In this document: positions 8,333-43,879 of the stretch, one piece after another
Layout of the letters: every line of letters begins with the position of its first letter
Numbering within the stretch: the first letter of the stretch is position 1
Assembly: GCF_000687715.1 (NCBI RefSeq)
Contig: NZ_JHXD01000003.1
Location: forward strand, 1-64,000
DNA length: 64,000 bases
Direction of reading: 5' to 3'
Source: Xylanibacter ruminicola Ga6B6
Lineage (GTDB): Bacteria; Bacteroidota; Bacteroidia; Bacteroidales; Bacteroidaceae
Notes under the pieces: model-generated
The model's input: the letters and a program-made list of their open reading frames with translations, nothing else
Told to the model about the DNA's origin: nothing
Databases searched by the model: none
Made by a program: the position numbers and the translations under genes

Positions 8333-8361
8333 TAAGTAGTAAAGTAATATTTCGGCCGATG

Positions 8362-8407
8362 GGCAGTTAGTAGCTCTCTGTGAGCTATTAATTGCCTGTT
8401 GGTTTTT
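8362..8407 (+). terminator. Hairpin after the SusE-like gene
   Basis: A 15-bp stem (8362-8376 with 8382-8396, two G-T wobbles) with a 5-base loop is followed by TGTTGGTTTTT. The T run is interrupted, so the terminator may be leaky. Confidence 0.65.
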
Positions 8408-8466
8408 ATGGCGTTAATTATTGTTATATTTTGAATTGAGATGGTGCGTGGTTGGGTTTTTATCTT

Positions 8467-8474
8467 TAACTTTG
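8467..8474 (+). promoter_or_regulatory. Promoter box TAACTTTG of the SusR-like gene
   Basis: TAnnTTTG match, 28 bp before the ATG at 8503. No well-placed TTTG element was found upstream, so activity is uncertain. Confidence 0.5.
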
Positions 8475-8502
8475 GCTGCGATTAACGAAGACTCAAACTA
8501 AA

Positions 8503-10104: not shown

Positions 10105-10119
10105 GCGGCTCACTGCTCA

Positions 10120-10178
10120 ATATTTCTGTTATACAAACAACTAACTCGACTTAAGTGAACTTGCTGATTATCAGCATT
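10120..10178 (+). promoter_or_regulatory. Putative regulator-binding region of the first PUL, copy 2
   Basis: Motif A (10120-10135) is identical over 16 bases to 1917-1932. Motif B, CTGATTATCAG (10164-10174), is a near-perfect dyad that matches 1962-1972. Motif B is about 80 bp before the promoter box at 10248, as upstream of susC. Confidence 0.6.
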
Positions 10179-10247
10179 CTCTTTGATATGTTGCATATTA
10201 TTCATTATACATTTACTTGCTTCCTTTCGTGTGTGCTTTATTTGCAG

Positions 10248-10255
10248 TACTTTTG
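10248..10255 (+). promoter_or_regulatory. Promoter box TACTTTTG of the GH31 operon
   Basis: TAnnTTTG match, with TTTCG at 10225-10229 spaced about 19 bp upstream in place of TTTG. The ATG follows at 10287. Confidence 0.65.
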
Positions 10256-10286
10256 TGCATGAAATAACAAAAACGTATTTTATAAA

Positions 10287-25977: not shown

Positions 25978-26802
25978 TTATGGAATAATAACTTCCAGTG
26001 GTTCGCTGTAGTTCCAGCGACGGGTGCCACTGCCTCGCGGCGTGTCGTAATTGATACGGGCGGCAGCACGCACAAAGACATGATAGCCTGATGGGATGGT
26101 CTGTCCGGCAGCCGAGCGGATGGTGATAGGCTTGCCTTCGAACTCATCAAAACTGTCGCCAGTATAGTTGATCTGACTTGACCAGCGCTGGTCGCGAGCA
26201 CGGTAGCCAACACTCGACGACATCGATACAAACAGCTGAATGTCGGTAACGTTTGTGAAGTCGTTGCTGTAACCGCCCATCGGTTCAACCATATTGCGGA
26301 ATTCCTCTTTACTAGTAGCACGAGTAACTTTTACCTTGGCTGTTATCTGACCGTTAGATACTGATGGCGTTTCAACGAACTCCACCTTCAGGAAGGGGTG
26401 TACCTCGAACTTCACTTTGGTTGTACCTGAAATCTTGCCATACCAAGTATCGTCGGAGATCACTGTTCCATCGTCGGTATCACGGTATATAGGTATAAAC
26501 GGACCGTCAATGCGAATATTGTATTCTCCATCGAAAATCTTTGTGTTTCTGAAGGTTCCATCGGGACGACAATAGAAATCAGGATTGTGATCTACGTTAT
26601 CACCATAGCTCAGTTCGGTCAGACGTACGCGGATACCCTCAGAACCTTGATCGGTCAGTACGGGTTCGCCAGTCTTGGCATCTATTACCACACCCTCGAT
26701 GGTCTCGCCTGGCTCTTCGTAGTTGTCAATCTCGAAGGCATCGCAGGCAGTAAGTGCGAATGCTGCAAACAGCAGGCTCGAAAAATATCTGAATGTTTTC
26801 AT
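25978..26802 (-). CDS. DUF3823-family lipoprotein
   Basis: Translation most likely starts at the ATG giving MKTFRYFSS (274 residues); an upstream in-frame ATG adds ten polar residues and would spoil the signal peptide. The lipobox is FALTAC, followed by DAFEIDNYEEPGETIEGVVI. The first domain (~30-120) is a transthyretin-like beta fold (EGVVIDAKTGEPV, then YNIRIDGPFIPI) and a second beta domain follows. DUF3823 proteins accompany SusC/SusD pairs in mannan-type loci and are thought to be surface proteins. It lies 36 bp after susD and 17 bp before the DUF4965 gene. Confidence 0.8.
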   Translation of the reverse strand: MKTFRYFSSLLFAAFALTACDAFEIDNYEEPGETIEGVVIDAKTGEPVLTDQGSEGIRVRLTELSYGDNVDHNPDFYCRPDGTFRNTKIFDGEYNIRIDGPFIPIYRDTDDGTVISDDTWYGKISGTTKVKFEVHPFLKVEFVETPSVSNGQITAKVKVTRATSKEEFRNMVEPMGGYSNDFTNVTDIQLFVSMSSSVGYRARDQRWSSQINYTGDSFDEFEGKPITIRSAAGQTIPSGYHVFVRAAARINYDTPRGSGTRRWNYSEPLEVIIP

Positions 26803-26838
26803 TGTTTTCTGTTTTTTATCTGTTATTATCATTGTAGA

Positions 26839-28924: not shown

Positions 28925-31900
28925 TTAGAATGACAATTGCAGACCAAAGGTATAGGTCTTGTTCAGCGGATACAAACGGCCCAGGTCGCTGTCGGGATGC
29001 TCTGGGTCAACAAACTTCACACCTGTGAATGTAAGCAGGTTGTAAGCGTTGGCATAGATGCGGAGCGACATACCGTTTAGTGCTTTCAACTTAGGCAGGG
29101 TGTAACCCAGCTCTACGCTCTTCAAACGCAGATAGGCGGTACTTACGCGGTTGAACTCTGAGTTGCCGATAGGATTGTGGTTGGTATAGGCGTAGTAGCC
29201 CGATACCCACTCCTGAGTAGGATCCCAAGGATCGGCAGTTGGATTAACCGGGTGCCAGCGATCCCAGAACTGCTCAAGTGTACCACCTGCAGCAGCCTCG
29301 TAACCCCAGATGCGGTAGAGTGGCTCTTCGTAGCGCATGCTACCCATAGCCGAGCCCTGGAAGAGAATGTTCAGGTCGAAGTTACGCCAGGTGGCATCGA
29401 TGTTGAACGAGTAGTTCATCCATGGTGTCTGGTCGTAGGCAAAAGGATGCTCGTCGAGTCCGTTTATCTCGCCATCGCCATTCCAGTCTTCATATTTGTA
29501 ATCGCCAGGCAGCACGTCGCGTTCGTGGTAGATGTCGTAGTTCCATATATCCTCCCAGCTGGTGAAACGACCTGCTGAAGTGTAACCGAACTGTACACCC
29601 TGATAGCGACCGTTCAGATTGTCGTTGCGCCATTTGTCATAGCTGTTGGCGTAGGTGGCATTCTGAACAGCTGTAAGATACTTGTTACGGGTAAGACTGA
29701 AGATACCCTTCAGGCCGTAGCTTACCTCGCCGATACGATTGCGATGTGTGATTTCAAGTTCTACACCGGCGTGCTGGTCGCTGTTGGCATTCATCTGTGG
29801 AGCATCGGCACCAATCACTGTTGGGAAATCGCCAGGACGCATGTAGAGACCTGTGCGCTTGCGGATAAAGTAGTCGAAGGTAATACCCAACTTGCCATCC
29901 CATGCGGTGAAGTCGAAACCGATATTGAAACTCTTTGATTTATACCATGAAATCGACTCGTTAGGCATAGCCTTGGGCGAGGCACCATAGATAAACTGTC
30001 CACCAAACATCCAGCCTGGGGCATAGCCGTTATACCAGCCCTTGTTGCCGTCGCCACTGCCGCCTGAGGGGTAAGAGTAGCCTGATACCCAGTCGTACGA
30101 AGCGCCTGAGTCGTCACCCATCTCGCCATAGCTGGCACGTACCTTCAGGTTCTGGATAAAATGCAGGGCATTGATGTTCTTGAAGAAAGGCTCTTCGCTG
30201 ATACGCCAACCGGCACTGGCTGATGGGAAGAAACCCCAGCGGTGACCTTCGGCAAACTGCGAGCTGCCATCGTAACGGAACTGACCCTCCAAAAGGTAAC
30301 GGTCGGCATAGTTATAGTTCAAACGACCGATGAATGAGTTGTAGTTAGCAGCATGGATATCGCCTGCATTGGCATTACCCACCTGACCATCGTCAACGCC
30401 ATTAAAAAGGTAAGGACTGTTGAAGGCAAGATTGCGTCGGGCATAGAAGGCGTCGTAAACCTTCTGCTGTGTTTCCAAACCAATCATGGCGCCTATCGTG
30501 TGTGAAGATATGGTGCGATTGTAGTTCAGAGTGAACTGCGAAAGCTTCTGCGTGTTGTCATAGTGCTCCTTGCGCAACTGGGCTGGCGAGCTGCCTGCGT
30601 AAACCTGCTGGATATAGGTATCTGTTACAGGATCGTAGGCATACTGGTTATACTGGCGACGATAGATCTCGTTTTTGTCCATGTGGAAGTCGTAAGAGTA
30701 CATGGCTCTTGCGGTCAATCCTTTGAGGACATCTACATACTTTCCAAAGTCGAATGTGATTGTACCCTGAGTCAGCATCTGGTAACGCTTGTACTTTCTG
30801 TGTCCGCTGATAGAGCTGGTCATTTCGGCTACAGCGTTCTCGCCCAGATCCAGATTCTGATAGTTCAGCATGGTGTGCTCTGGGTCGGCATAGGCTGCTG
30901 CCAGCGGACCTTGGCGCCAGTAGTTGCGGATGATGTCGGTAGTTGATGTGTAAGGTGTGTTGCGGTTGTCGAGCATGCCGTTTATCTGCAGCTCGAAGTT
31001 CAATCCCTTCACAATCTCAGCGTTAATCTTCGATGTGATGTTGAACTTGTCGTAGTTCAGGTCGCCGCTCTTCAGAAAACCTTCCTGATAGAGGTAACCC
31101 ATGCTTACGAAATACTGCATCTTCTCCGAGCCGCCGCTGATGGTCATGTTGTGATTGGTCTCAGGGGCTGTATCGGCAAAAATCAGTTTGTTCCAGTCGG
31201 TGCCTTGTTTGGTACCATTACGGTATTCCTCTATAGCCTCTTCGGTAAACATGGGAGCACCTCCGTCGATGTTGTTCTTCTTGAGCTCGTTCATCAGTGT
31301 CATAGCACGAACGGGATCGAGCAGCTTAGGCATACTTTTGGGTGCCTGGATAGTGAATGAACCGCTATAGCTGACTTGGGTTTTACCCATACCGCCTTTC
31401 TTGGTGGTAACAAGCACTACACCGTTAGCGGCACGCAGACCGTAGATGGCTGCCGAGGCATCTTTCAGCACCGAGATGTCCTCGATGTCATTGGCATTCA
31501 TGCGTTGGAAATCCTCAACCGAACGGGGCACTCCATCGATAACGATAAGTGGCGCACCAAGTCCGCGTACATCAAAATTATTTTTGTAGGTACCAGGCTC
31601 AGCACTCTGCTGCCAAACGCGAACGCCGGCAATACGGCCTGTTAACATATTCTGGGTGTTTTCGTTGTTGGTTTTCAGCATTTCCTTACCACGCAGGGCG
31701 CTTACCGAACCTGTTATCGAACCACGTTTCTGTGTGCCGTAACCTACTACAATCACGTCGTTCAGTTCGGATACATCTTCTTTCATGCTGATGTTTATAG
31801 TCTGTCGGCCTTGAACATTCTGGCTTACAGCTTTCATGCCAATGTAGGCAAAATCAAGTGTGCCGTTGTCGGCTACTGAGATGGAATAGTTTCCATCGAA

Positions 31901-32071
31901 ATCGGTTACTACGGCCGTCTTTGTGCCACGATGGGTGACTGTAGCGCCTATCACTGGCTCGTTGTTCTGGTCGGTAACAGTTCCTTTTACGGTGATGATA
32001 CTCTGTGCCTGCACGCTCAGACTGAAAGCTGCCGACAGCAGAAGTAAACATTTCTTGGTTAAAATATTCAT
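28925..32071 (-). CDS. SusC/RagA-family transporter of the mannan-type operon
   Basis: This 1048-residue TonB-dependent transporter has a signal peptide (~1-22) and a carboxypeptidase-regulatory-like domain (VKGTVTDQNNEPVIGATVTH, AYIGMKAVSQNV). The TonB-box region is LNDVIVVGYGTQKRGSITGS and the plug contains VLKDASAAIYGLRAANGVVL then VTTKKG. A barrel follows, ending KTYTFGLQLSF. It sits 21 bp after GH76 and 25 bp before susD. Together with SusD it should import manno-oligosaccharides made by GH76 at the surface (inference from neighbours). Confidence 0.96.
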   Translation of the reverse strand: MNILTKKCLLLLSAAFSLSVQAQSIITVKGTVTDQNNEPVIGATVTHRGTKTAVVTDFDGNYSISVADNGTLDFAYIGMKAVSQNVQGRQTINISMKEDVSELNDVIVVGYGTQKRGSITGSVSALRGKEMLKTNNENTQNMLTGRIAGVRVWQQSAEPGTYKNNFDVRGLGAPLIVIDGVPRSVEDFQRMNANDIEDISVLKDASAAIYGLRAANGVVLVTTKKGGMGKTQVSYSGSFTIQAPKSMPKLLDPVRAMTLMNELKKNNIDGGAPMFTEEAIEEYRNGTKQGTDWNKLIFADTAPETNHNMTISGGSEKMQYFVSMGYLYQEGFLKSGDLNYDKFNITSKINAEIVKGLNFELQINGMLDNRNTPYTSTTDIIRNYWRQGPLAAAYADPEHTMLNYQNLDLGENAVAEMTSSISGHRKYKRYQMLTQGTITFDFGKYVDVLKGLTARAMYSYDFHMDKNEIYRRQYNQYAYDPVTDTYIQQVYAGSSPAQLRKEHYDNTQKLSQFTLNYNRTISSHTIGAMIGLETQQKVYDAFYARRNLAFNSPYLFNGVDDGQVGNANAGDIHAANYNSFIGRLNYNYADRYLLEGQFRYDGSSQFAEGHRWGFFPSASAGWRISEEPFFKNINALHFIQNLKVRASYGEMGDDSGASYDWVSGYSYPSGGSGDGNKGWYNGYAPGWMFGGQFIYGASPKAMPNESISWYKSKSFNIGFDFTAWDGKLGITFDYFIRKRTGLYMRPGDFPTVIGADAPQMNANSDQHAGVELEITHRNRIGEVSYGLKGIFSLTRNKYLTAVQNATYANSYDKWRNDNLNGRYQGVQFGYTSAGRFTSWEDIWNYDIYHERDVLPGDYKYEDWNGDGEINGLDEHPFAYDQTPWMNYSFNIDATWRNFDLNILFQGSAMGSMRYEEPLYRIWGYEAAAGGTLEQFWDRWHPVNPTADPWDPTQEWVSGYYAYTNHNPIGNSEFNRVSTAYLRLKSVELGYTLPKLKALNGMSLRIYANAYNLLTFTGVKFVDPEHPDSDLGRLYPLNKTYTFGLQLSF

Positions 32072-32092: not shown

Positions 32093-33556
32093 TTACTGCA
32101 AATTAGTTGCTACGAGCATGCCGTATTCCGAGGCGTAGGCGAAAGCGATGATGGCACGTACATCGTTCTGTGCCTGATTATTGCTCCAACCGCCTGTAAG
32201 ACCGCGTGGCAATGCGTTCTGACGGAGAAAGCTCTCCCACGAATAGTCGAGGTTTGTCTGGAAGGTGGCAACGCCCTCTTTAGCGTCCACTCCAATACTT
32301 ACTGCATCTATCCAACCGCGCATCAGTACATCGTCGAACCAACGGCTGAAGTCGCTATAGGCATAATCCCATGTGCCTTTCGAGTTCTTCTTGGGGAAGT
32401 AGTCGAAGGTAGCTGTGTAAAGCTTGCGTGTATCGTCGAGATAACGACTGTCGTGAGTGAGTGCATACAGGTCGGCACCGCCACTTACCATAGTACCGCT
32501 GTTATAGGTGTGCTTGGTGCCACCTGCACCTGTGCCTGGATTAGAGATGCGGTACTGTACGCCATCAAAAACATCGTAGCGGATGTTGTTGCTGGCGCCT
32601 ACCATATCCAGATATACGCCATCCGATGCACGCAGGTTGTATTGCTGCCACTCGTATATCTTTTTAGCCATCATCAGGTAGTAATCGGCTTTTGTGGCAG
32701 TAACATCCTGTCGCTTACCATCATTAGCGATGGTGCGATAGGTTACTTTATCGTTCTTGCCCTGATAGTACTCGGCCAACCACACTAGTGGCGATACGAA
32801 CGGACCGTTGCTGCAAGCATGTTTGGTGCCGTAGGATGGGCCCCAGGTAATGCCGCCCACCTCATTGCCCCAGGCGTGCTGCTTGTCGTCAAGGCACCAG
32901 TCCCAGCCATCCAGTACATAGGCTGTCAGGTATTCTGCCTTATCCAGATATTTCTGTTCGCCAGTGGCTTTCCACGAACGTAGAAGTTCGCGGATAATCC
33001 ACTGCTGATCGTCGTATACATTCTGGTCGCCATCTACCTTGGCGCCTCCTTTCATACCGCCACGGTGTACACCATAAACGGTCCACTCCTGATTGTTGCG
33101 GGTATAGGAGGTGAGCTTAAAGGTGCCTGCATAGTACTCCAGTCCGTCGTACAGTTTTGCAAGCTGCTCCTTATAGGCTGCTGCTGTTCCCTGCTGGGCA
33201 CTCTTTCCGGCCTTAGTAAGTGCTGCGTAACCCTCAAGGATGCTGTTGCAGGCCTCGATGGCTGCAGTATAGGGCCATACGTCGGCCTCGCCCGATGCTT
33301 TGTCGGTATAAGGGTTGTACATGTCGGCCATCTTCATGTCGCCGCTGATGTAGTGCTGCATGGCTGCATCAAACAGGGCGGTGGCTCTGGTGAGATTGCG
33401 TACACTCACATCGTTGGTCTCAATAGGCTGGGGCGCAACGGGAGTGGTAGGTTCGTCGGTCTGGAAGTCGTTATTGCTGCCACAGCTGGCTGTGGTAGAG
33501 AGCGCGAGGGCCAGACTGACCATAGTTAGAATTTCTTTCTTCATTTTCTTATTCAT
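32093..33556 (-). CDS. Glycoside hydrolase family 76 endo-alpha-1,6-mannanase, lipoprotein
   Basis: This 487-residue enzyme (483 if the second ATG at 33544 is used) has lipobox STTASC (Cys25), so it is probably surface anchored. GH76 enzymes cut the alpha-1,6-mannan backbone of fungal cell-wall mannan with retention. The conserved catalytic Asp pair is visible as Asp182-Asp183 in NVYDDQQWIIREL. Further (alpha/alpha)6-barrel landmarks are GVHRGGMKGG and NEVGGITWGPSYGTKHACSN. Its surface location, with SusC/D next in the operon, fits initial backbone cleavage before import. It is the second gene of the operon, 7 bp after the first. Confidence 0.92.
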   Translation of the reverse strand: MNKKMKKEILTMVSLALALSTTASCGSNNDFQTDEPTTPVAPQPIETNDVSVRNLTRATALFDAAMQHYISGDMKMADMYNPYTDKASGEADVWPYTAAIEACNSILEGYAALTKAGKSAQQGTAAAYKEQLAKLYDGLEYYAGTFKLTSYTRNNQEWTVYGVHRGGMKGGAKVDGDQNVYDDQQWIIRELLRSWKATGEQKYLDKAEYLTAYVLDGWDWCLDDKQHAWGNEVGGITWGPSYGTKHACSNGPFVSPLVWLAEYYQGKNDKVTYRTIANDGKRQDVTATKADYYLMMAKKIYEWQQYNLRASDGVYLDMVGASNNIRYDVFDGVQYRISNPGTGAGGTKHTYNSGTMVSGGADLYALTHDSRYLDDTRKLYTATFDYFPKKNSKGTWDYAYSDFSRWFDDVLMRGWIDAVSIGVDAKEGVATFQTNLDYSWESFLRQNALPRGLTGGWSNNQAQNDVRAIIAFAYASEYGMLVATNLQ

Positions 33557-33563
33557 ATCTTTG

Positions 33564-35366
33564 TTAGTTCAAGTCAATACTGTAGATGGTTACCTTGTTC
33601 TCATCGCCGTTTGCCTCGCCTTTGTAAACAGCCAGAACCAATGTTACGTTCTTACCATTATACTGCGACAAGTCGAACACAAATTTTCCATAATTCTCTG
33701 GGTGTCCGGTATCACCGTTACTGTGGCGGAACTTGATGGTGCCGTCGGGGCCTTCCTTCAAGTCAGATACCTTCGATTCGCTATTGGGCTGCAGATACTT
33801 CACGTTCATTTCGTCAGTAATGGCAATAAGTTTGAAGTAGGTGGCGTTGTCGCCAAAGTTGCGGGCACGCAGGGTGAATTTGTTTCTGTTATTGCTGATG
33901 GCGAACTTGCTGTACAGGTAGCTTTCGGCTTTCGTCGTACTTACGCTGCCATCGCCGCCACGGGTCTTGATGGTGTAACCCTCGTTGGTAAATACATCGC
34001 AGTCTTTAGTGATTGAGGTCAGTCCCCAATAGGCTGCTACGTGTCCAGTCTTGTTCCAATCGCGGTAAGCCCATACATACTCGTCGCGGTTCTTCTTACC
34101 TTCGTAGGTGGTGATACCTGTAAACGAATTCATCTCGTTTGGCATGGTGGCACGTACCATATCCTGGGTAAGGTGCAAATCCTCAAGCTGCTCGTTGATA
34201 GGTGTACCAGGCAACCAAGCCAGTCCATTGGTGGCTGATGGAGCGAAACTCAAGCGGCGCAATACTAGCTGAACCCACTCGCCTGAATAGTAAGTGCCAA
34301 TGGCTATGGCGATATCCTTGCCTACGTAGGCGCTCAGATCGAACGTGAAGTTCTTGTAGTTACCATCCTGGAACGAGATGTTGTCGCCCAGCTTCTTGGC
34401 CTGTGGTTTCTGCTCGCTCAGGTCAACCACTACCACATTCCAGATGGCAGGACCTTGGTGGGTGCGGGCAAACACGGTCAGAATCTTATTATCTTCGGTG
34501 ATGTGCTTTCTACCATATATAAAGGTGTTCAGATGATCGTAGTCGACTCCGCCTTTGCTCTCATCAACACGCATGGTGGTTCCTTCGTTCTGCTCCTCCC
34601 AGTTACCCATCATGTCGAGTGTACACATGTAGTTTACACTCCAGTCGAATTGTGGGTAGTTGTCGGCATTACGTCCACCGCGGTATTCGTTGTACATCCA
34701 GGGAGTACAGGTTTTCAGATCGCTCAGCGTCAGACCTGGTAAAACCTCATCGCCGCCCATGATGATGTCGGGCAGTTGGGCTACGCCATCCTTAAAGTCG
34801 TCGGCTTTCACCTCTTTAGTTACAGGTGCGTAATCGCCGTATGTAAAAGTGATGGTGTAGTTGTCCAAGGGTAGCTGCGATATGGTATACACGCCATCGC
34901 TGCCTGTTGTAACAGGTTCGCTACCAACTGTTGCTGTGGCGCCTGCCAGTGGCTGCTTACCGTTTTGGGCATCAAGCAGTCTACCGGTAATCTTCGCTGC
35001 GGCATAACGCATGCTGGTGCTGATGTTGGCAGTACCATCGCTCCACTGTTTGGGAGCCACCGTACAGCTCACGGTCTGGTAGTCTTGCTTACTAAATGTA
35101 ATAATGTGTTTGCCGATGGGTAGCCCTGTCAGGGTGTAGCTACCTGATACATCAGTAGTACTGCTGATGTCTGCATCGTTCACTGTTACACTGACGCCTT
35201 GTAGAGGATTGCTTTGGTCGTCGGTAATAATACCGCTTACGTTACCATTGCCCAGGTTTACGTCATTGTTGTTTTCGTCGTTGGTGCAGCTTGTGCTGCC
35301 GAGTGCCAAAAAACATACCGTTAAGAGATATGCCGTTAGTTGTTTGGCTTTGGTTTTCTGTCTCAT
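33564..35366 (-). CDS. Putative surface glycan-binding lipoprotein with two CarboxypepD-reg-like domains
   Basis: This 600-residue lipoprotein (lipobox LGSTSC, Cys27) has two transthyretin-like domains (~42-120: GNVSGIITDDQSNPLQGVSV; ~125-205: KITGRLLDAQNGKQPLAGAT). Two longer beta domains follow that look homologous. One contains KNFTFDLSAYVGKDIAIAIG and the other GKFVFDLSQYNGKNVTLVLA; both resemble the end of a galactose-binding-like fold. No hydrolase motif is visible. As the first gene of a mannan-type operon, before GH76 and SusC/D, it is likely a surface glycan-binding protein (inference). It has no clear SusE/F similarity. Confidence 0.65.
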   Translation of the reverse strand: MRQKTKAKQLTAYLLTVCFLALGSTSCTNDENNNDVNLGNGNVSGIITDDQSNPLQGVSVTVNDADISSTTDVSGSYTLTGLPIGKHIITFSKQDYQTVSCTVAPKQWSDGTANISTSMRYAAAKITGRLLDAQNGKQPLAGATATVGSEPVTTGSDGVYTISQLPLDNYTITFTYGDYAPVTKEVKADDFKDGVAQLPDIIMGGDEVLPGLTLSDLKTCTPWMYNEYRGGRNADNYPQFDWSVNYMCTLDMMGNWEEQNEGTTMRVDESKGGVDYDHLNTFIYGRKHITEDNKILTVFARTHQGPAIWNVVVVDLSEQKPQAKKLGDNISFQDGNYKNFTFDLSAYVGKDIAIAIGTYYSGEWVQLVLRRLSFAPSATNGLAWLPGTPINEQLEDLHLTQDMVRATMPNEMNSFTGITTYEGKKNRDEYVWAYRDWNKTGHVAAYWGLTSITKDCDVFTNEGYTIKTRGGDGSVSTTKAESYLYSKFAISNNRNKFTLRARNFGDNATYFKLIAITDEMNVKYLQPNSESKVSDLKEGPDGTIKFRHSNGDTGHPENYGKFVFDLSQYNGKNVTLVLAVYKGEANGDENKVTIYSIDLN

Positions 35367-35403: not shown

Positions 35404-35411
35404 CAAAAATA
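35404..35411 (-). promoter_or_regulatory. Promoter box TATTTTTG of the mannan-type operon
   Basis: On the minus strand this matches TAnnTTTG and precedes the ATG at 35366 by about 37 bases. It should drive all seven genes down to 21163. Confidence 0.6.
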
Positions 35412-35425
35412 GGTGTCAATATCAT

Positions 35426-35452
35426 AAATAACCGGTTAATTAAGGGTTATTT
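35426..35452. promoter_or_regulatory. Dyad in the divergent promoter region (candidate operator)
   Basis: An inverted repeat AAATAACC (35426-35433) and GGTTATTT (35445-35452) flanks a TTAATTAA core. It lies between the promoter of the mannan-type operon and that of the Kelch-SARP regulator, where an operator controlling both would be expected. Confidence 0.45.
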
Positions 35453-35508
35453 TGTGATTAAAAGTGTTAATCTGCGTAAACTTTGATTATATTCTGCCTT
35501 AAAAGCGC

Positions 35509-35516
35509 TAATTTTG
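35509..35516 (+). promoter_or_regulatory. Promoter box TAATTTTG of the Kelch-SARP regulator
   Basis: TAnnTTTG match, with a TTTG at 35482-35485 (spacing 23, somewhat long). The ATG follows 22 bases later at 35539. Confidence 0.6.
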
Positions 35517-35538: not shown

Positions 35539-38013
35539 ATGGACAAAATTTTAAAACTGCTATTGTTACTCTTATTTTCTGTGAGTTACGCCCATTCGCG
35601 TGCTCAAGGTTTACGTTTTCTGAATCCTATCGATTCTATTAATGGCCGTACCTCATATTCTGTGTTTGCCGACGATGAAAAGGTGTTTTTTCATCAGTTG
35701 GATATCCAGTTCGATATGCTGTTGCCCCGAGTGGGCGAGGTGGGGTATATACTCCATGTGGTTGACGAGGAGAAAGGGGTTAACTTTAATATCTTCTACG
35801 ATGGACGTGGAAATGATCTTATCGAGCTCAACGAGGAAGGTAAGACTACGCTGATTCGTCGTCGGTTTAATCGCCAGGGGCTGCTCGATAAGGGATGGAT
35901 ATCGTTTAAAGTCTCGTTTAATCTCGATAAGCACGAAATTTACATGAACATTGATGGACAGAAGCAGACAGTTCTCGTTCAATCGCTGCCTGCTTCGTTA
36001 TCGCCCCGAATCGTGTTTGGTCGCTTTGACTATCTCATCGAGGTTCCCTCTGTTACCATCAGAAACCTGCGCATCAGAAGTGGCGAGGCAAACTATTTTT
36101 TCCCTCTTTCGCAGAGTAGTGGCAATGTGGTGTTCGATCATCAGCTTAAAAAGGTGGGGCATGTGGATAACCCCTATTGGAGCATTAACGACTGCTATCA
36201 CTGGCAGCGACTTAGCGAGATGAAATTCCAGCATAATGCTGGAGCCGCTTTCGATTTCCAGCGCCATTTGTTTTATGGTTATACACGCGATACCTTATTA
36301 ATATATAATACCGATAATCGTGAAACCACTTGTCGTGTATTCCCCCAAAAATGTCCTGTTGATGTTAATCTGGGTATGAATTTTATCGATCCTCGTAGTA
36401 GGAAACTCTATACTTACGAGGTGTACAAGTATGATAACCTGGCCGACCGTCCACAGGATGAGGCCTCGATAGCCAGTCTGGATCTGAATACACTTGAGTG
36501 GACACCTGAGTGTTACACCCAGTTGCCCACCCAGCTGCATCATCATGGCTCGTTTGTTGATACTTTACGTAATCGATTCTGTATTTTCGGAGGTTTTGGT
36601 AGCATGCTGTATTCCAGGCAGTTACATGTGTACAATCTGGATAACCATCAGTGGCAGCAACCTCAAAACCTCCAGGCTTGTACACCGCGTTATTTTACTT
36701 CTATGGGTATCGACTCGTTGTCGCGTTACGCCTATATCTTTGGTGGCATGGGCAATGAGTCGGGTAACCAGTCAATCGGGCGTCACTATCTCTACGATTT
36801 ATATCGAATCGACCTGGCAAATGATTCGGCTGTGCGTATGTGGACCATCGACTGGGGCAAACGCCAGAATATTGTGCCTGTGCGTAATCTCGTGGTGATG
36901 GGCGGTTACTTCTATACGCTGTGCTATCCCGAGGCATTGTCGGACTCGTATCTGCGTTTGTGCCGTTTCTCAATTGCCGATGGTAGTATGGAGATGTTAG
37001 GCGATTCTATCCCCATCCACTCCGATAAGATAGCCACCAATGCCAATATCTATTACGACCCAGTGGTAGATAAGTTCTTTGTGTGTGTGCAGGAGTTTAC
37101 GGATGACATCTCGTCAACCATTTCGTTTTACTCAATTCAGCTGCCTGTGCTGTCGGATGCGCAGTTTGCCGAGGTTTCCAAGTTGCCTGCCGACAGACGT
37201 CTTTGCTACCTGGCCGTGGCGCTGCTACTGATAGTAGTGGCTTCTGTGTGGATGCTTTACCATTGTTATCGCAAACGTAAACAGGTTATTGCAAACAATG
37301 AGAAAATCGACGTACAACTGCCCGAAACCAAGCCCAATGCTATTTATGTTTTTGGTAGTTTCTGTGCTTTCGACAGAAAGAACCGTGATATATCGTACCT
37401 GTTTACCGATAAATTGCGTGAGCTTACCTGTGTGTTGCTTTGGTATCACAAGCAAGGAGGTGTATCGTCAAAGTTACTTGGTACCATGCTGTGGGGCGAC
37501 AAACCGGCTGATAAGATTAAAAACTCGCGTAGTGTGCTTATTAATCACATGCGTAAGGTGTTGGAGGAGATGGATGGTATCGAGTTGGTTTATACCGATG
37601 GCTATTACCATTTTGTTACCAGTCACCCCTTCTATTGCGATTATCTCGATTGCGCCCGTCAGATATTTACCGAGCAATATACCGAGCAGAGTCTGCTGGG
37701 CATCTTGTGTCGCGGCAAATTCCTGCTAACTCAGGATGCACCCTCACTCGATCAGTTTAAGTCAGAGACCGAGCGTATTCTTAAACCCGTTATCCTGCGC
37801 ATGATAAAACATACCTATGCTAGCAACGAACTTAAACTTACACTTTATCTCGTAGAGGCGATGTTACATATCGATCCCTACCATGTCGACTCGTTCTCCT
37901 ACAAAATCAAATCGCTCAAGCGTCTGGGTAAGGTCTATGAGGCGCAGGATGCCTCGCGTGCCTTCCACGAAGAGTACATTAAAGCCTTCGGCGAAGATTT
38001 TGAATTAAAATAA
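35539..38013 (+). CDS. Transmembrane one-component regulator: LamG-like and Kelch sensor with SARP-like output
   Basis: This 824-residue protein has a signal sequence (~1-23), a beta-sandwich that looks LamG/concanavalin-like (~40-185: ISFKVSFNLDKHEIYMNIDG) and a Kelch-type beta-propeller (~205-545) with repeats such as RNRFCIFGGFGSMLYSRQLH and RYAYIFGGMGNESG. One membrane helix follows (YLAVALLLIVVASVWMLYHC, ~557-576). The cytoplasmic part has a winged-helix domain (~590-690: YVFGSFCAFDRKNRDISYLF, KSRSVLINHMRKVL-like) and a helical BTAD-like tail, the combination found in SARP regulators. It is divergent from the alpha-mannan-type operon, so it is its likely regulator (inference). The domain fusion is unusual. 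The type IX genes start 53 bp later on the same strand. Confidence 0.75.
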   Translation: MDKILKLLLLLLFSVSYAHSRAQGLRFLNPIDSINGRTSYSVFADDEKVFFHQLDIQFDMLLPRVGEVGYILHVVDEEKGVNFNIFYDGRGNDLIELNEEGKTTLIRRRFNRQGLLDKGWISFKVSFNLDKHEIYMNIDGQKQTVLVQSLPASLSPRIVFGRFDYLIEVPSVTIRNLRIRSGEANYFFPLSQSSGNVVFDHQLKKVGHVDNPYWSINDCYHWQRLSEMKFQHNAGAAFDFQRHLFYGYTRDTLLIYNTDNRETTCRVFPQKCPVDVNLGMNFIDPRSRKLYTYEVYKYDNLADRPQDEASIASLDLNTLEWTPECYTQLPTQLHHHGSFVDTLRNRFCIFGGFGSMLYSRQLHVYNLDNHQWQQPQNLQACTPRYFTSMGIDSLSRYAYIFGGMGNESGNQSIGRHYLYDLYRIDLANDSAVRMWTIDWGKRQNIVPVRNLVVMGGYFYTLCYPEALSDSYLRLCRFSIADGSMEMLGDSIPIHSDKIATNANIYYDPVVDKFFVCVQEFTDDISSTISFYSIQLPVLSDAQFAEVSKLPADRRLCYLAVALLLIVVASVWMLYHCYRKRKQVIANNEKIDVQLPETKPNAIYVFGSFCAFDRKNRDISYLFTDKLRELTCVLLWYHKQGGVSSKLLGTMLWGDKPADKIKNSRSVLINHMRKVLEEMDGIELVYTDGYYHFVTSHPFYCDYLDCARQIFTEQYTEQSLLGILCRGKFLLTQDAPSLDQFKSETERILKPVILRMIKHTYASNELKLTLYLVEAMLHIDPYHVDSFSYKIKSLKRLGKVYEAQDASRAFHEEYIKAFGEDFELK

Positions 38014-38066: not shown

Positions 38067-39005
38067 GTGAAACGTTTCATTATCGCGATAGTAGGATTGT
38101 GGATTGTGGTCGTAGCGGTGCGGGCGCAATACGATGTTTCCTTTGCTCATTACTGGGCAATGGAGCCGTCGTTTAACCCAGCGACTGTGGGTAAGGAGGC
38201 TAAATTGAATGTGACTGGGGCCTATGGGCTGCAGCTGGCAGGCTTTGAGCATAACCCAAAAACCATGTACGCGGCGGCCGACATGCAACTGTATGGCTTG
38301 GGTACCTATCACGGTGTGGGTGTGCAGCTGCTGAACGATGATATCGGACTGTTCTCGCACAAGCGCTTGGCTGTGCAGTATGCCTACCAGCGACGGGTTC
38401 TGAAGGGCAAGCTGAGCGTAGGTGTGCAGTTGGGTATGCTGGGCGAGACGTTTGATGGTAGTAAGGCCGAAATGCCCGAGGATGGCAGCGACCCCGTATT
38501 GTCGAGCTCGTCGATTAACGGATCGGGACTTGATATATCGGCAGGCATCTACTATAAGGCCCGAAAATGGTACATGGGAGCATCGGTTCTGCACCTTAAC
38601 AACCCCGTGGTAACACTGGGCGAAACCAGCGAACTGAGCATTGGTGCAACATATTATTTTACCGCTGGATACAATATTCAGCTAAATCATCCGTTTTTTA
38701 AAATACAGACCTCTGTGTTAGGGCGCACCGATGGCACCGCCTGGCGGGCCGATGTAACAGGGCGCATCAGGTACGAACACGATAAAAAGATGCTGTACGC
38801 AGGCCTCTCGTACAGTCATACTAACTCGGTAACGGTGCTGGTAGGTGGCCGATGGCACGGCATACACCTGGGCTATAGCTACGAGTGTTACACCAGTGCC
38901 ATTAACGTGGGTAACGGCAGTCATGAACTGTTTGTGGGCTACGAGACAGAGCTGAATCTGTATAAAAAAGGCAGGAATCTGCATAAGAGCGTAAGATTAC
39001 TATAG
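38067..39005 (+). CDS. PorP/SprF-family type IX secretion outer-membrane protein
   Basis: This 312-residue outer-membrane barrel starts with GTG at 38067; no in-frame ATG gives the complete signal peptide (MKRFIIAIVGLWIVVVAVRA). Family features are YDVSFAHYWAMEPSFNPATV near the mature N-terminus and later GIYYKARKWYMGASVLHLNN. It is followed by gldK, gldL, gldM and gldN in the order of the por operon, which supports PorP/SprF. In P. gingivalis PorP works with PorK/N in the type IX machine. A weak box TACGTTTT at 38052 may be the promoter; read-through from 38013 is the alternative. Confidence 0.9.
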   Translation: MKRFIIAIVGLWIVVVAVRAQYDVSFAHYWAMEPSFNPATVGKEAKLNVTGAYGLQLAGFEHNPKTMYAAADMQLYGLGTYHGVGVQLLNDDIGLFSHKRLAVQYAYQRRVLKGKLSVGVQLGMLGETFDGSKAEMPEDGSDPVLSSSSINGSGLDISAGIYYKARKWYMGASVLHLNNPVVTLGETSELSIGATYYFTAGYNIQLNHPFFKIQTSVLGRTDGTAWRADVTGRIRYEHDKKMLYAGLSYSHTNSVTVLVGGRWHGIHLGYSYECYTSAINVGNGSHELFVGYETELNLYKKGRNLHKSVRLL

Positions 39006-39019
39006 TAAATAAGATATAT

Positions 39020-40456
39020 ATGAAGAAACTGATAGGACTATGCACCGTTGCGGCACTGATGCTTACCAGCTGTTTTGGTGGTAAGCTGATGACGGCTAAT
39101 GGTGGTGAGGTGACAGGTACCAGTGGCAGGGCTTTTACCGAGCCAACACCCTACGGCATGGTGCTGGTTAAGCGTGGCCATGTGAAAATGGGTATTGAAA
39201 ACCAGGATTCGCTGTGGGGTAAGAAAACACCCGTACGCGACATCTCGGTAGATGGATTCTGGATGGACGAGACCGAGGTTACCAACTCGAAGTATCGCCA
39301 GTTTGTGAATTATGTACGCGACTCGATTCTGCGCGAACGTCTCTCGGAGATTGACGAGACCTACAAAACGGTAAAGACCGACCGTGAGGGTAACGAGATA
39401 TCGACCGTACTGAACTGGAAGAAACCGCTGCCCCGCCGTCCGAGCGAGGATGAGCAGGAGATTATTGACGCCATGTACGTAACCAACCCAGTTACAGGCG
39501 ATAAGATGTTGGATTTCCGCCAGCTTAACTACCGTTACGAGGTGTACGACTATACCGCCGCAGCCCTGCGTCGCAACAGATTGAACCCACAAGAGCGCAA
39601 CCTGAATACCGACCTGACAGTTGATCCCGACGAGCAGGTGTGGATATCGAAAGATACAGCCTATGTGGATGACGAGGGGCGTATTGTTCGCGAGAGCATC
39701 AACCGTCCGCTCTCGGGCCCGTGGGATTTCCAGAATACCTATATCGTAAACGTATTCCCCGACACCACGTGCTGGGTAAACGATTTCCCCAATGCTGATA
39801 ACGAGATGTATCTGCGCTACTATTTCTCGAATCCCGCTTACAACGATTACCCCGTGGTGGGTGTTACCTGGGAGCAGGCCAATGCTTACTGTGCCTGGCG
39901 TACTGAGTATCTGCTGAAAGGCTTAGGTCCCGCAGCCCGTTATGTGCAGCGTTACCGTCTGCCAACCGAGGCCGAGTGGGAGTATGCCGCCCGTGGTAAG
40001 GATCAGAACGAGTTCCCTTGGGACAACGAGGATGTGGCCAGCGGCAAGGGCTGTTTTTACGCCAACTTTAAGCCCGATAACGGCAACTATACCAAGGATG
40101 GTAATCTGATTACCAGTAGGGTGGGCATCTATTCGGCCAACTCGAATGGACTTTACGATATGGCAGGTAATGTGGCCGAGTGGACCAGCACCATCTATAC
40201 CGAGGCAGGTGTTGAGGCAATGAACGATATCAACCCCACACTGAAGTACAACGCTGCTCAGGAGGATCCCTATCGACTGAAGCGAAAGAGTGTGCGTGGT
40301 GGTTCGTGGAAGGATCCCGAGTCGTATATCCGTTCGGCCTGGCGTACAGCAGAGTATCAGAATCAGCCCCGTTCGTACATCGGATTCCGCTGTGTGCGCA
40401 GTCTGGCCAACTCAACCAGCGAGCGCGCCAAAAGCACAAAAGGTAAGAGAATGTAA
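39020..40456 (+). CDS. gldK: GldK/PorK, type IX secretion lipoprotein
   Basis: This 478-residue lipoprotein (lipobox LTSC, mature start CFGG) has a formylglycine-generating-enzyme-like (SUMF1) fold. Landmarks are GMVLVKRGHVKMG and VDGFWMDETEVTNSKYRQFV near the N-terminus. YRLPTEAEWEYAARG, NSNGLYDMAGNVAEWTSTIY and SVRGGSWKDPESYIRSAWRT lie toward the C-terminus. GldK/PorK forms a periplasmic ring with GldN under the outer membrane. It lies 14 bp after the PorP-like gene and 20 bp before gldL, in the canonical order. Confidence 0.95.
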   Translation: MKKLIGLCTVAALMLTSCFGGKLMTANGGEVTGTSGRAFTEPTPYGMVLVKRGHVKMGIENQDSLWGKKTPVRDISVDGFWMDETEVTNSKYRQFVNYVRDSILRERLSEIDETYKTVKTDREGNEISTVLNWKKPLPRRPSEDEQEIIDAMYVTNPVTGDKMLDFRQLNYRYEVYDYTAAALRRNRLNPQERNLNTDLTVDPDEQVWISKDTAYVDDEGRIVRESINRPLSGPWDFQNTYIVNVFPDTTCWVNDFPNADNEMYLRYYFSNPAYNDYPVVGVTWEQANAYCAWRTEYLLKGLGPAARYVQRYRLPTEAEWEYAARGKDQNEFPWDNEDVASGKGCFYANFKPDNGNYTKDGNLITSRVGIYSANSNGLYDMAGNVAEWTSTIYTEAGVEAMNDINPTLKYNAAQEDPYRLKRKSVRGGSWKDPESYIRSAWRTAEYQNQPRSYIGFRCVRSLANSTSERAKSTKGKRM

Positions 40457-40476
40457 ACACTAAATACGCAATAGTT

Positions 40477-41241
40477 ATGACGATATACAGCAAATATAAT
40501 GTAATTTACCGCTTGCAGAAGTGGATGGACAGTGTGCCAGGACAGACGTTCCTGAACTACGCCTACTCATGGGGCGCATCAATCGTAATCTTAGGTACGT
40601 TGTTTAAGCTCACCCACATGGGTGGAGCCGATTATCTGCTGTTCTTTGGATTAGGAACAGAGGTCATTGTGTTCTTCCTTTACGCCTTCGATCGTCCGTT
40701 CGACAAGACTACCGATGGTATGGTGCTGGATACCCACGTGAACGTTAATGGTGAAGCGCCCGTTGTTAGTAAAGGTGGTAGCGCAACCGTAGTAGGTGGA
40801 AATGGCGGAACCATTATCATTAATGGCAACGGTGGTACCTATACTGGATCATCGACCAATGTACCGTCGACACCCAGCGCCCAGCCGACAGCTGTACAGC
40901 ATGCAGTCGCTGCCCAGCCCGTATCTGTTTCGGCTCACCCCGAATTGGATGCTGCTACCTCTACCTACGTAGAGGAGCTGAAGCACCTGACAGAAACTCT
41001 CTCGAAGGTATCGGCCCAGAACGAGAAGCTGGCTCACGACTCTGAGGAGATGGAGAACCTGAACCGCACGCTTACCGGCATCTGCAAGGTTTACGAGATG
41101 CAGTTGAAGAGTGCCAGCGCCCAGATTGGTACGATCGATGATATTAACGATCAGACCAAGAAGATGGCCGCACAGATAGCAGAACTGAATAAGATTTATA
41201 GCCGTATGATTGAGGCAATGACGGCTAAGATGAACGCATAA
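40477..41241 (+). CDS. gldL: GldL/PorL, type IX secretion motor protein
   Basis: This 254-residue inner-membrane protein has two membrane helices (~25-45 and ~52-71) and a long cytoplasmic tail. The second helix contains Glu62 in GLGTEVIVFFLYAFD, matching the conserved membrane glutamate used in proton-driven rotation. The tail has a glycine-rich stretch (~98-125: GGSATVVGGNGGTIIINGNG), a Ser/Pro/Ala linker and then a coiled coil (ATSTYVEELKHLTETLSKVS). GldL and GldM form the rotary motor of type IX secretion. It lies 5 bp before gldM. The glycine-rich insert is the only unusual part. Confidence 0.95.
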   Translation: MTIYSKYNVIYRLQKWMDSVPGQTFLNYAYSWGASIVILGTLFKLTHMGGADYLLFFGLGTEVIVFFLYAFDRPFDKTTDGMVLDTHVNVNGEAPVVSKGGSATVVGGNGGTIIINGNGGTYTGSSTNVPSTPSAQPTAVQHAVAAQPVSVSAHPELDAATSTYVEELKHLTETLSKVSAQNEKLAHDSEEMENLNRTLTGICKVYEMQLKSASAQIGTIDDINDQTKKMAAQIAELNKIYSRMIEAMTAKMNA

Positions 41242-41246
41242 CGACT

Positions 41247-42806
41247 ATGGCAATCAAGAAAAGACCCGTTTCTCCACGCCAGAGGATGATTAACTTGATG
41301 TACGTTGTCCTGATGGCGATGTTGGCACTTAACGTTTCGAACGAGGTGCTCAACGGTTTTTCGATTGTGGAGGAAAGTCTGAACCGCACTACAGGTAACT
41401 CTGCCAAGGAGAACCTGGCCATCTACAAAACCTTTGAGCAGCAGCTGAAGGCTAACCCGCAGAAAACCCGTGAATGGTATGACAAAGCCCAGCAGGTACG
41501 CCAGATGAGCGACTCGCTGTATAACTTTGCTGCCAGTCTGAAGCAGGCCATCGTGGTTGAGGCTGATGGCAAGGATGGCGACGTAACCAATATTCGCAAT
41601 AAGGAGGATCAGGAGCCCGCTAACTATGTGATGCTCTCGCCTACCAACGGACAGGGACAGAAACTGTACAAGGCTATCAACAGTTTCCGCGAGCGTATGC
41701 TGACGATGGTAACTGATGAGAAACAGCGACAGATTATAGCCAGCAATCTTACTACCCAGATGCCCAAGCGTGCTATGGGTAAGAACTGGGCCGAATATAT
41801 GTTTGAGTCGATGCCCGCTGCGGCTGCTGTTACGCTGCTGTCAAAACTGCAGAGTGATGTGCGCTATGCCGAGGGAGAGGTTCTGCATACTCTGGTACAG
41901 AACATCGACGTGAAGGATGTTCGTGTAAACCTGTTGGATGCCTTTGTGATTCCCAACTCAAAAACGATTGTTCGTGGCGACCGTTTCTCGGCCCGTATCG
42001 TGATGGCTGCTGTTGATACTACTCAGGTACCCGATATCTTTATCGGCGGACAGAAAGTAAATTTGCAGAACGGCTTGTATGAGACCGTATGTGGCAAGAC
42101 GGGTGACTTTACGCTGAAGGGCTATATGGAGATGGTGAATGGCAATGGCGACCGTATACGCCGTGAGTTTGCACAGGATTACACCGTAGTTGAGCCCAGT
42201 GCCACCGTATCGGCCGACCTGATGAATATGCTTTATGCAGGTTATGCCAACCCCATCAGCATTAGTGTGCCAGGTGTGCCCCTGAATAAGATTCAGGCCT
42301 CGATGACCAATGGTACTTTACAGAGCGTAGGTCCTGGCAAATATATCGCACGTCCAGCTAAGATAGGTCAGAATGCTGTGATTACCGTTACCAGCATCAA
42401 TACCGGTCATGCCCAGCAGATGGGACAGTACACCTTCCGTGTAAGGAAATTGCCCGATCCTACACCTTATATAGCGATGAAGGACGAGCATGGCAATCCC
42501 GCTCGATACAAGGGTGGTGCCCTGAGCAAGGGACAGCTGGTGGCAGTAGATCATCTGGGTGCTGCTATCGACGATGGCATACTGGATATCGCCTTCCGTG
42601 TGCAGAGCTTCGAAACGGTGTTTTTCGATAATATGGGTAACGCCGTGCCGATGGCATCGGATGGTGCGCAGTTCTCGGCCCGCCAGAAAGATACCTTCCG
42701 CAAACTGGCCCGTAATCGCCGATTCTATATCTCGAGGGTAACGGTAACCGGTCCCGATGGATTAACCCGTACCCTGACTAACCCCATGGAAGTGATTGTA
42801 AAATAA
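41247..42806 (+). CDS. gldM: GldM/PorM, type IX secretion motor shaft protein
   Basis: This 519-residue protein has one N-terminal membrane helix (MINLMYVVLMAMLALNVSNE, ~14-33) and a long periplasmic part of stacked helical and beta domains, as in PorM crystal structures. Landmarks are the start KKRPVSPRQRMINLMYVVLM and LMNMLYAGYANPISISVPGV near residue 330. It couples the inner-membrane motor to the PorK/N ring. It lies 5 bp after gldL and 17 bp before gldN. Confidence 0.95.
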   Translation: MAIKKRPVSPRQRMINLMYVVLMAMLALNVSNEVLNGFSIVEESLNRTTGNSAKENLAIYKTFEQQLKANPQKTREWYDKAQQVRQMSDSLYNFAASLKQAIVVEADGKDGDVTNIRNKEDQEPANYVMLSPTNGQGQKLYKAINSFRERMLTMVTDEKQRQIIASNLTTQMPKRAMGKNWAEYMFESMPAAAAVTLLSKLQSDVRYAEGEVLHTLVQNIDVKDVRVNLLDAFVIPNSKTIVRGDRFSARIVMAAVDTTQVPDIFIGGQKVNLQNGLYETVCGKTGDFTLKGYMEMVNGNGDRIRREFAQDYTVVEPSATVSADLMNMLYAGYANPISISVPGVPLNKIQASMTNGTLQSVGPGKYIARPAKIGQNAVITVTSINTGHAQQMGQYTFRVRKLPDPTPYIAMKDEHGNPARYKGGALSKGQLVAVDHLGAAIDDGILDIAFRVQSFETVFFDNMGNAVPMASDGAQFSARQKDTFRKLARNRRFYISRVTVTGPDGLTRTLTNPMEVIVK

Positions 42807-42823
42807 ATAAGGTATAAGATAGT

Positions 42824-43879
42824 ATGAAGAGATTATTGTTCATATCAACCCTCGTGCTGATGGTGAGTGTAGCAGTGGCTCAGCCACCACAGCGCCGTGC
42901 CGAGCAGCAGGCTCAGCAGCAAGCCAAGCAGAATGCAGCATCTTCGGCTATGTCGATGCGCGCACAGATATCATTCCCCACAGCTGTAGAGATGCCCGAA
43001 GAGGTGGTGTGGCGTCGTGATATCTATCGTGAGATATCATTAGAGGATGATGCCAACGGCGGACTTTACTATCCCGTAGAGCCACAGGGCAAACAGTTGA
43101 ACTTGTTTACCTATATCTTTAAGCTGGCGCTGAACGGCTATATCCCCGTGTACGAGTATCCTACCGATGGCAGCGATGTGTTTACCGATGCTACTAAGGC
43201 CGATATGAAGGCCCTGCTGGATAACTACCACATCTATTATGAGGAAAAGGATGGTAAGATACGTGTGGATAACAGTGATATTCCCTCGGCGATGGTGAAG
43301 AAGTACTATCTGAAGGAGAGTGCCTATTACGATCAGGCTAACTCGTCGTTCCACATCAAGGTGCAGGCCTTATGTCCCATTATGATGGACGAGTTTGGTG
43401 GCGAGGCAACGCAGTACCCCCTGTTCTGGGTGAAATACAGTGACTTGGAACCCTACCTGAACCGTCAGACGGTGATGGCCAGCAGTATGAACAATGCCGC
43501 CACCGTATCGATGGACGATTTCTTTACGCTCAACATGTATCGTGGAAAAATCTATAAAACCAACAACGCACAGGGCAAAACATTGCTGCAGTTATGTGGT
43601 GGCGATGAGGCTAAGATGACAGCCGAACAGAAGCGTATCGAAGCCGAACTGGAGGGTTTTAAGAAAACGATTTTCGGCGATCCTGCTAAGCGCGACTCGC
43701 TTGATAGCATAGCTGCCCTGAAGGATAGCAAGGCCGACAAGAAGGTGAAGGCTGCCAAGAACAAAACCGCCGCAACCAAGGGCGTAAAGGTGACTAAGCA
43801 GAAGAGTGCCAAGACCGAGAAATCGAGTGGCAGTAGCAACAGTGGTGCCCGTGTGTCGGTACGTCGACAGCGTCACTAA
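42824..43879 (+). CDS. gldN: GldN/PorN, type IX secretion ring protein, with basic tail
   Basis: This 351-residue periplasmic protein (signal ~1-19) matches GldN/PorN through VVWRRDIYREISLEDDANGG (~51-70), NLFTYIFKLALNG and IKVQALCPIMMDEFGGEATQ. It binds GldK in the periplasmic ring. The last ~50 residues are a low-complexity tail rich in Lys, Ala and Ser (KADKKVKAAKNKTAATKGVK and SGSSNSGARVSVRRQRH). I do not expect that tail in all family members. A terminator follows, closing the five-gene type IX operon. Confidence 0.95.
   Translation: MKRLLFISTLVLMVSVAVAQPPQRRAEQQAQQQAKQNAASSAMSMRAQISFPTAVEMPEEVVWRRDIYREISLEDDANGGLYYPVEPQGKQLNLFTYIFKLALNGYIPVYEYPTDGSDVFTDATKADMKALLDNYHIYYEEKDGKIRVDNSDIPSAMVKKYYLKESAYYDQANSSFHIKVQALCPIMMDEFGGEATQYPLFWVKYSDLEPYLNRQTVMASSMNNAATVSMDDFFTLNMYRGKIYKTNNAQGKTLLQLCGGDEAKMTAEQKRIEAELEGFKKTIFGDPAKRDSLDSIAALKDSKADKKVKAAKNKTAATKGVKVTKQKSAKTEKSSGSSNSGARVSVRRQRH

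Follow-up and report, generated by a model that had tools for sequence, protein, structure and literature searches.

A probable membrane-bound Kelch regulator with a predicted SARP fold and a candidate direct-repeat operator at an alpha-mannan utilization locus of Xylanibacter ruminicola

Introduction

Known regulators of polysaccharide utilization loci (PULs) comprise SusR proteins, hybrid two-component systems (HTCSs) and pairs of extracytoplasmic function (ECF) sigma and anti-sigma factors (PMC3878776, PMC4321491), and an AraC-like regulator has also been named (PMC4321491). According to PMC3878776, the DNA-binding domain of SusR has no significant similarity to other known ones, and the HTCS proteins BT2628 and BT3786 are encoded in two mannan-induced loci of B. 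thetaiotaomicron. The gene described here lies in a 64,000-nucleotide stretch of Xylanibacter ruminicola Ga6B6 (contig NZ_JHXD01000003.1, positions 1 to 64,000; hereafter the window) and encodes a protein in which a Kelch propeller and a single membrane helix precede a part with a predicted SARP fold. This protein is probably a membrane-bound one-component SARP activator of the alpha-mannan PUL that is transcribed divergently from it.

Like SusR, the regulator would be a PUL regulator that joins a periplasmic sensor to a cytoplasmic DNA-binding domain; however, the sites predicted for SusR consist of two boxes separated by 67 or 77 bp (PMC3878776). With BT2628 and BT3786 it shares a membrane sensor and a DNA-binding domain in one chain, and an association with alpha-mannan loci (PMC3878776). 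Unlike an HTCS, it has no histidine kinase, receiver or AraC domain among its Pfam matches up to E 1, and no ECF sigma or anti-sigma domain is found among those matches. In membrane regulators of the ToxR/CadC type, a single membrane helix connects an OmpR-type winged helix with a periplasmic part; relative to that architecture, the domain order here appears reversed and a BTAD domain added.

The resemblance to the SARP activators AfsR and EmbR lies in a predicted winged-helix and BTAD fold that extends over the whole C-terminal part, and in a candidate site of 11-bp direct repeats near the promoter’s -10-like box. The differences are that the SARP part is C-terminal, following the Kelch sensor and the membrane helix; that such proteins occur in Bacteroidota, beside PULs; that the promoter-nearest repeat is spaced by 12 bp; and that sequence similarity is weak, with BTAD matched in 17/56 homologues. 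A classical SARP is soluble and carries its SARP domain at the N-terminus, and neither holds for this protein. Because its SARP part is C-terminal and lies behind a membrane helix, the regulator is not classed as a classical SARP.

Domain architecture and predicted SARP fold

A model of the C-terminal part, built on a 56-sequence alignment (pLDDT 94.5, pTM 0.87), finds its top VIA-align match in AfsR (8k60_I; Z 15.4, root-mean-square deviation (rmsd) 4.7, 220 residues aligned). A second AfsR chain (8hvr_I; Z 15.1, rmsd 4.6, 217 aligned) and two EmbR chains (2fez; Z 13.6, rmsd 4.6, 220 aligned; and 2ff4_B; Z 13.3, rmsd 4.6, 221 aligned) rank next, and the remaining listed VIA-align matches are TPR and other helical proteins that align over 65–129 residues with Z of at most 11.6. 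Foldseek returns six chains at E≤1e-3, every one of which is EmbR or AfsR. Among the 56 homologues, Pfam BTAD matches 17 (best 3.9e-6), Trans_reg_C matches 9 (best 0.0072) and DUF4919 matches 8 (best 2.7e-5), and a sequence profile run against the PDB yields no SARP, most of its matches being designed TPR proteins. Prediction thus gives good support to a SARP fold over the entire C-terminal part, whereas sequence supports it only in part. The initial annotation, made from the DNA letters alone, had read this cytoplasmic part as a winged helix with a BTAD-like domain, and the structural matches bear that reading out.

Most of the sensor architecture proposed in that annotation is also recovered. 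The Kelch-like propeller with its FGGxG motifs is confirmed by Pfam Kelch repeats at residues 310–433 (E 1.5e-14), by FGGFG at residues 350–354 and FGGMG at 401–405, and by a full-length AlphaFold2 model built from 14 homologues (pLDDT 83.9, pTM 0.58), for whose propeller nearly all of the 50 best VIA-align matches are Kelch structures (Z 19.1–22.3; for example 9mf0_F, Z 21.4, rmsd 3.5, 276 aligned). Outside the Kelch repeats, Pfam finds nothing convincing in the protein. The proposed N-terminal sandwich domain is indeed beta-rich and is without a convincing family or solved relative: Pfam yields only scattered weak matches (best 0.00059, to Rad1, in 3/39), and solved structures yield lipocalin-type chains at E 0.025 or worse.

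The single membrane helix is present in the model and recurs in hydropathy profiles of 79 orthologues, 78 of which have one single membrane segment ahead of the C-terminal part; in 69 of those 78, lysine and arginine are richer on its C-terminal side. This arrangement therefore fits the topology that we infer, a periplasmic sensor with a cytoplasmic C-terminus. The N-terminus is hydrophobic, as the predicted signal peptide would have it, and 53/79 orthologues exceed the hydropathy cut-off; the window protein falls below it, so that a signal peptide is here considered likely and not demonstrated. L144 was left out of this survey for its split frame: in this Sphingobacterium locus (9893–12466) the regulator frame consists of two open reading frames (ORFs), reflecting either a broken gene or a sequencing error.

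Linkage of the regulator to alpha-mannan PULs

The divergent alpha-mannan operon named in the initial annotation is present on the minus strand, with genes for a CarboxypepD-reg lipoprotein (CpD), a GH76 protein, SusC, SusD, a DUF3823 protein, a glutaminase-A-like protein and GH92. In a single-protein search of 40 relatives the regulator matched its own genome only, and it matched 12/301 sampled genomes of the family, its own included. A pattern scan of GTDB species genomes identified 153 relatives, and the analysis continued with the best 80 loci (L066–L145); by organism name we take these to represent Bacteroidales, Cytophagales, Sphingobacteriales and others. A locus was counted as PUL-linked if it contained at least one homologue of CpD, GH76, SusC, DUF3823, glutaminase-A-like protein or GH92 at fixed score cut-offs in the stretch available for it. 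By this measure 73/80 regulator loci are PUL-linked, against 1/20 control stretches, which are arbitrary positions in five genomes of the window’s family and are not clade-matched.

The association also holds in reverse. A search keyed on CpD matched 8/393 genomes of the order, including the window’s own, and the SARP part is present in all seven of the others (best E 2.5e-107 to 2.0e-64). In six of these seven it shares a contig with CpD; in G1051, an assembly of 480 contigs with the weakest SARP match, the two are on different contigs. By comparison, the SARP part is found at E≤1e-10 in 9/296 genomes of a phylum sample, own genome included, in a first-pass search that may miss some. Carriage of this mannan PUL is thus a strong predictor of the regulator, in keeping with the GH76/GH92 linkage anticipated for its homologues.

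Distant Kelch-SARP relatives (22–23% identity) are located near SusC/SusD or GH92 genes in L056, L058, L060 and L063, and up to three such relatives occur per genome (G126). The class may thus serve several glycans. Three weak hits from the phylum sample, L188–L190, are long frames (1065–1216 aa) that might carry other sensors.

A candidate direct-repeat operator

An intergenic alignment of the window with L066–L070 contains GGTTAA, GGTTA and GATTAA, each exactly 11 bp from the next and separated by spacers that vary, and then an identical GATTAAAAGTGTTAATC. Motif training used 63 regulator-upstream regions, namely that of the window and those of loci in which the gene to the left is directed away from the regulator across a gap of ~100–700 bp. 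Direct 7-mer repeats in these regions peak at a spacing of 11 (187), with other spacings at 26–100 and the value of 100 reached at 12 and 22. Expectation maximisation produced the motif GaTTAAntnntGGGTTAAAaanGGGTTA with a log-likelihood of 724, a value inflated by close relatives among the 63, against 114–120 for three letter-shuffled sets. Thirteen of the 63 regions scored below 12, and in ten of these the PUL start does not adjoin the regulator.

In a grid over spacings, GRTTAW-12-GGTTAN-11-GGTTA occurs 47 times in 43/95 stretches (the 80 loci plus an additional 15 from genomes among them, relatives not thinned), no other first spacing exceeds four occurrences, and 400 kb of control DNA contains none. 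Pairs of GGTTAW in the 95 stretches number 50 at 11 bp, 26 at 12 bp, 18 at 23 bp and at most nine at any other distance, whereas the control has one each at 7, 11, 12, 19 and 23 bp. Equal-spacing triples, a weaker test than the 12+11 grid, number 14 at period 11 and at most two elsewhere. Direct repeats of the form GRTTAA-12-GGTTA-11-GGTTA before the PUL promoter box are therefore best described as a likely operator, a candidate drawn from comparison of sequences. The upstream regions of 11 more distant paralogues show no clear common repeat, and their spacing peak at 21–22 bp is due largely to a single tandem repeat in L053.

In the window itself the promoter-proximal repeat, TCATAA, is degenerate, as it is in L066. 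The pattern RRTTAW-N5-RRTTAW-N5-RRTTAW, composed after the site had been seen, has a single match in the window’s own genome, at 35434–35461, and the reversed pattern has none. With a Prevotella-free model, which used 43/63 rows after 7 Prevotella-type and 13 low-scoring rows were dropped, the window site scores 12.5 and ranks top of the 64-kb window, the next independent place reaching 9.0, and the L066–L071 sites score 17.2–24.4. The initial annotation had proposed as operator a dyad at 35426–35452, which spans two of the direct repeats. Its place was right and its letters exist, but its symmetry did not hold, as the direct repeats are conserved and the left arm varies among relatives; the dyad was rejected as the operator for that reason.

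The candidate site accompanies the PUL

The best site adjoins the regulator gene in 62/80 loci, 56 times upstream on the plus strand and six times downstream on the minus strand, without exception, and the left neighbour points away in 54 of the 56 loci with an upstream site. Eleven of the 62 sites are outside the training stretch (that of L102 is not wholly inside), and these include all five loci whose PUL lies behind the regulator and shares its strand (L097, L110, L129, L137 and L145; L110 and L129 are apparently the same loci as L051 and L052). GH76 was also sought in 16 genomes, comprising 14 loci without a regulator-adjoining site and, in addition, L111 and L117, which have one. A 7.5-kb region that surrounds the GH76 start and extends upstream of it was then scored in 15 of these genomes, L099 being excluded with its GH76 frame at a contig end. 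In 15/15 the best match lies upstream of CpD (13) or of a directly preceding GH92 gene (2), in the expected orientation and with scores of 17.6–36.5; none of these sites was in training, and in L167 and L173 the GH76 gene is on a different contig from the regulator. A model made from only eight Sphingobacterium-type sites selects the same best place in the 15 far PULs and in L066–L071 (scores 0.6–35.3). In five of the seven reverse-test genomes, a site scoring at least 21.9 lies upstream of CpD.

Because the far-PUL and reverse-test sites lie upstream of CpD or GH92, the candidate site, as judged from its distribution, goes with the PUL and not with the regulator gene, which therefore need not be autoregulated. 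In L112, L118 and L128 (positions 12617, 12621 and 14348, respectively) a second similar site (22.5–23.2), oriented as expected, precedes a gene behind the regulator that encodes a 732–733-aa protein, which suggests a two-operon regulon in these loci.

The Bacteroidota -7 consensus is TAnnTTTG. The promoter set consists of 79 sites scoring at least 17, reduced to 77 by dropping L093 and L169 and then dereplicated to 60 loci, in 37 of which the TTTG of the -7 box starts 14–15 nt past the site on the PUL strand. The full TAnnTTTG is at that place, 9–10 nt from the site, for 12/79 sites. In the AfsR paper PMC10936776, SARP sites are described as direct repeats spaced by 11 or 22 bp, the 3’ one of which is separated from the -10 element by 8 bp. 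The match of the site layout to SARP promoters is independent of the match in fold.

Proposed mechanism and alternatives

Computation supports the architecture, the SARP fold, the linkage, the site and the site geometry. In the mechanism proposed, the Kelch propeller and the beta-rich domain would bind, in the periplasm, a mannan-derived oligosaccharide that the PUL imports. Binding would change or pair the protein such that the cytoplasmic SARP domains, whose fold is predicted, come to lie side by side; the paired domains would sit on the 11/12-bp direct repeats that comparative genomics places upstream of the PUL promoter, and would contact RNA polymerase in the manner of AfsR to raise CpD-GH76-SusC-SusD transcription. 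We infer the mannan oligosaccharide ligand, the ligand-driven pairing, the AfsR-like contact and the direction of control, namely activation and not repression.

Several observations weigh against this proposal. First, the profile comparison that finds BTAD in homologues yields nothing for the window protein, whose own C-terminal part has no Pfam family match at E≤0.1. Second, the window site is weak: its score of 12.5 is also reached by 1/20 control stretches, and the eight-site Sphingobacterium-type model places it third in the window, at -1.0. Third, the spacing of the promoter-proximal repeat is mostly 12 and not 11 bp, the outer pair being at 11. Fourth, 5/80 loci are without a located site (L087, L092, L094, L099 and L105; L099 and several others are cut contigs), and in two of the seven reverse-test genomes, L207 and L208, no site lies closer to CpD than 1.5 kb. 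Finally, 7/80 loci have no PUL genes above the cut-off (L087, L092, L094, L105, L108, L109 and L114); six of these are stretches of 4–15 kb, and L108 is a full 22 kb.

The repeats lie directly upstream of the -7 box, a place equally open to a repressor, and a SARP-fold membrane regulator could thus repress the PUL, with the site blocking the region upstream of that box until sugar binds. This is unlikely, however, as the site layout is that of published SARP activator promoters and the best structural matches are EmbR and AfsR, the latter solved as an activation complex. It is less probable still that another transcription factor occupies the repeats and that the Kelch protein merely travels with the PUL, as a sensor or a protein of the envelope. 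The Kelch protein is linked to the repeats only indirectly; nevertheless, a SARP fold coincides with SARP-type repeats at the PUL promoter, and regulator and PUL co-occur in both search directions. Activation of the PUL by the Kelch-SARP protein is accordingly preferred to either alternative.

Neighbouring genes

The type IX secretion genes porP-gldKLMN, absent from the initial annotation, begin 53 bp 3’ of the window regulator on the same strand (Table 1), and the corresponding gaps in L066–L069 are 53, 27, 9 and 27 bp. With gaps of only 9–53 bp, co-transcription of the regulator with porP-gldKLMN is possible in this group. That the regulator chiefly controls this operon is nonetheless highly improbable: PorP, GldK and GldM each occur in 4/80 orthologue loci, porP in 12 same-genus stretches has other genes upstream and no Kelch gene, and GldK is present in 56/60 same-genus genomes, whereas the regulator matched 0/23 other same-genus genomes. 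The type IX neighbour is confined to L066–L069 (Prevotella or Xylanibacter, two of them named ruminicola). Given the 4/80 loci and the other porP neighbours in the 12 same-genus stretches, it is judged local, and a conserved link between the regulator and type IX secretion is rejected.

Two further observations concern PUL content. L066 (Xylanibacter ruminicola D31d, 7300–12475) retains the regulator, the site and GH92 but has no CpD, GH76, SusC, SusD or DUF3823 gene in the interval from the regulator to the glutaminase-A-like gene, which represents either a deletion or a short form of the PUL. Elsewhere in the window, a gene for a DUF6377 protein (8503–10104) is flanked by a SusE-like gene on one side and GH31/GH38 genes on the other and is possibly the regulator of a neighbouring PUL.

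Table 1. Positions of the regulator, the candidate operator and adjacent genes in the window
Feature	Coordinates	Strand	Basis or remark
GH92 family glycosyl hydrolase	21163..23451	-	
DUF4964/DUF5127/glutaminase-A-hairpin protein (glutaminase-A-like)	23462..25960	-	
DUF3823 protein	25978..26832	-	
SusD-like protein	26839..28899	-	
SusC-like TonB-dependent transporter	28925..32071	-	
GH76 protein	32093..33556	-	
CarboxypepD-reg lipoprotein (CpD), first PUL gene	33564..35366	-	
PUL promoter -7 box, TATTTTTG	35404..35411	-	
Candidate operator: GGTTAA 35434, GGTTAT 35445, GATTAA 35456 (11-bp period), degenerate TCATAA 35422	35422..35462	+	
GATTAAAAGTGTTAATC, identical in window and L066–L070	35456..35472	+	alignment
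Presumed -7 box of the regulator’s own promoter, TAATTTTG	35509..35516	+	
Kelch-TM-SARP regulator gene	35539..38013	+	ORF, ATG start, 824 aa; model
N-terminal hydrophobic segment, probable signal peptide, residues 1–23	35539..35607	+	sequence; model helix 2–17
Beta-rich domain, ~residues 24–215	35608..36183	+	model strands; no convincing family match
Kelch propeller, ~residues 217–539, presumed periplasmic sensor	36187..37155	+	Pfam; Kelch structures
Single membrane helix, ~residues 552–579	37192..37275	+	model and hydropathy
Winged-helix DNA-binding domain (predicted), ~residues 600–695	37336..37623	+	model; structure matches
Helical BTAD-like domain, ~residues 700–820 (701–817 in model)	37636..37998	+	model; structure matches
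porP-gldKLMN type IX secretion genes	38067..43879	+	judged outside the system

Novelty and significance

No description of SARP- or Kelch-type PUL regulators was found in the literature, as covered without subscription journals, preprints and PULDB. The paper on the Salegentibacter alpha-mannan PUL (PMC9213526) does not use the word ‘regulator’ in its main text, and the accessible parts of PMC11253607, PMC7825182, PMC13088901 and PMC4071793 do not describe a Kelch-SARP type. The novelty of the membrane Kelch-SARP control design in print is therefore provisional, because that coverage lacks most subscription papers.

On balance, we lean towards the view that membrane-tethered SARPs with periplasmic Kelch sensors form an additional class of PUL regulators alongside SusR, HTCS and ECF/anti-sigma systems, Bacteroidota-wide and with a direct-repeat operator code of its own, which may switch on by ligand-driven, side-by-side SARP pairing at the membrane. 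If this is true, a regulator class would be added to the short list of those that govern how Bacteroidota of gut and soil harvest glycans, and an activator fold that is known above all from producers of antibiotics would be placed in a membrane sensor. The concrete promoter site makes function, ligand and mechanism directly testable, and the system might serve as a sugar-switched promoter for the engineering of Bacteroidota.

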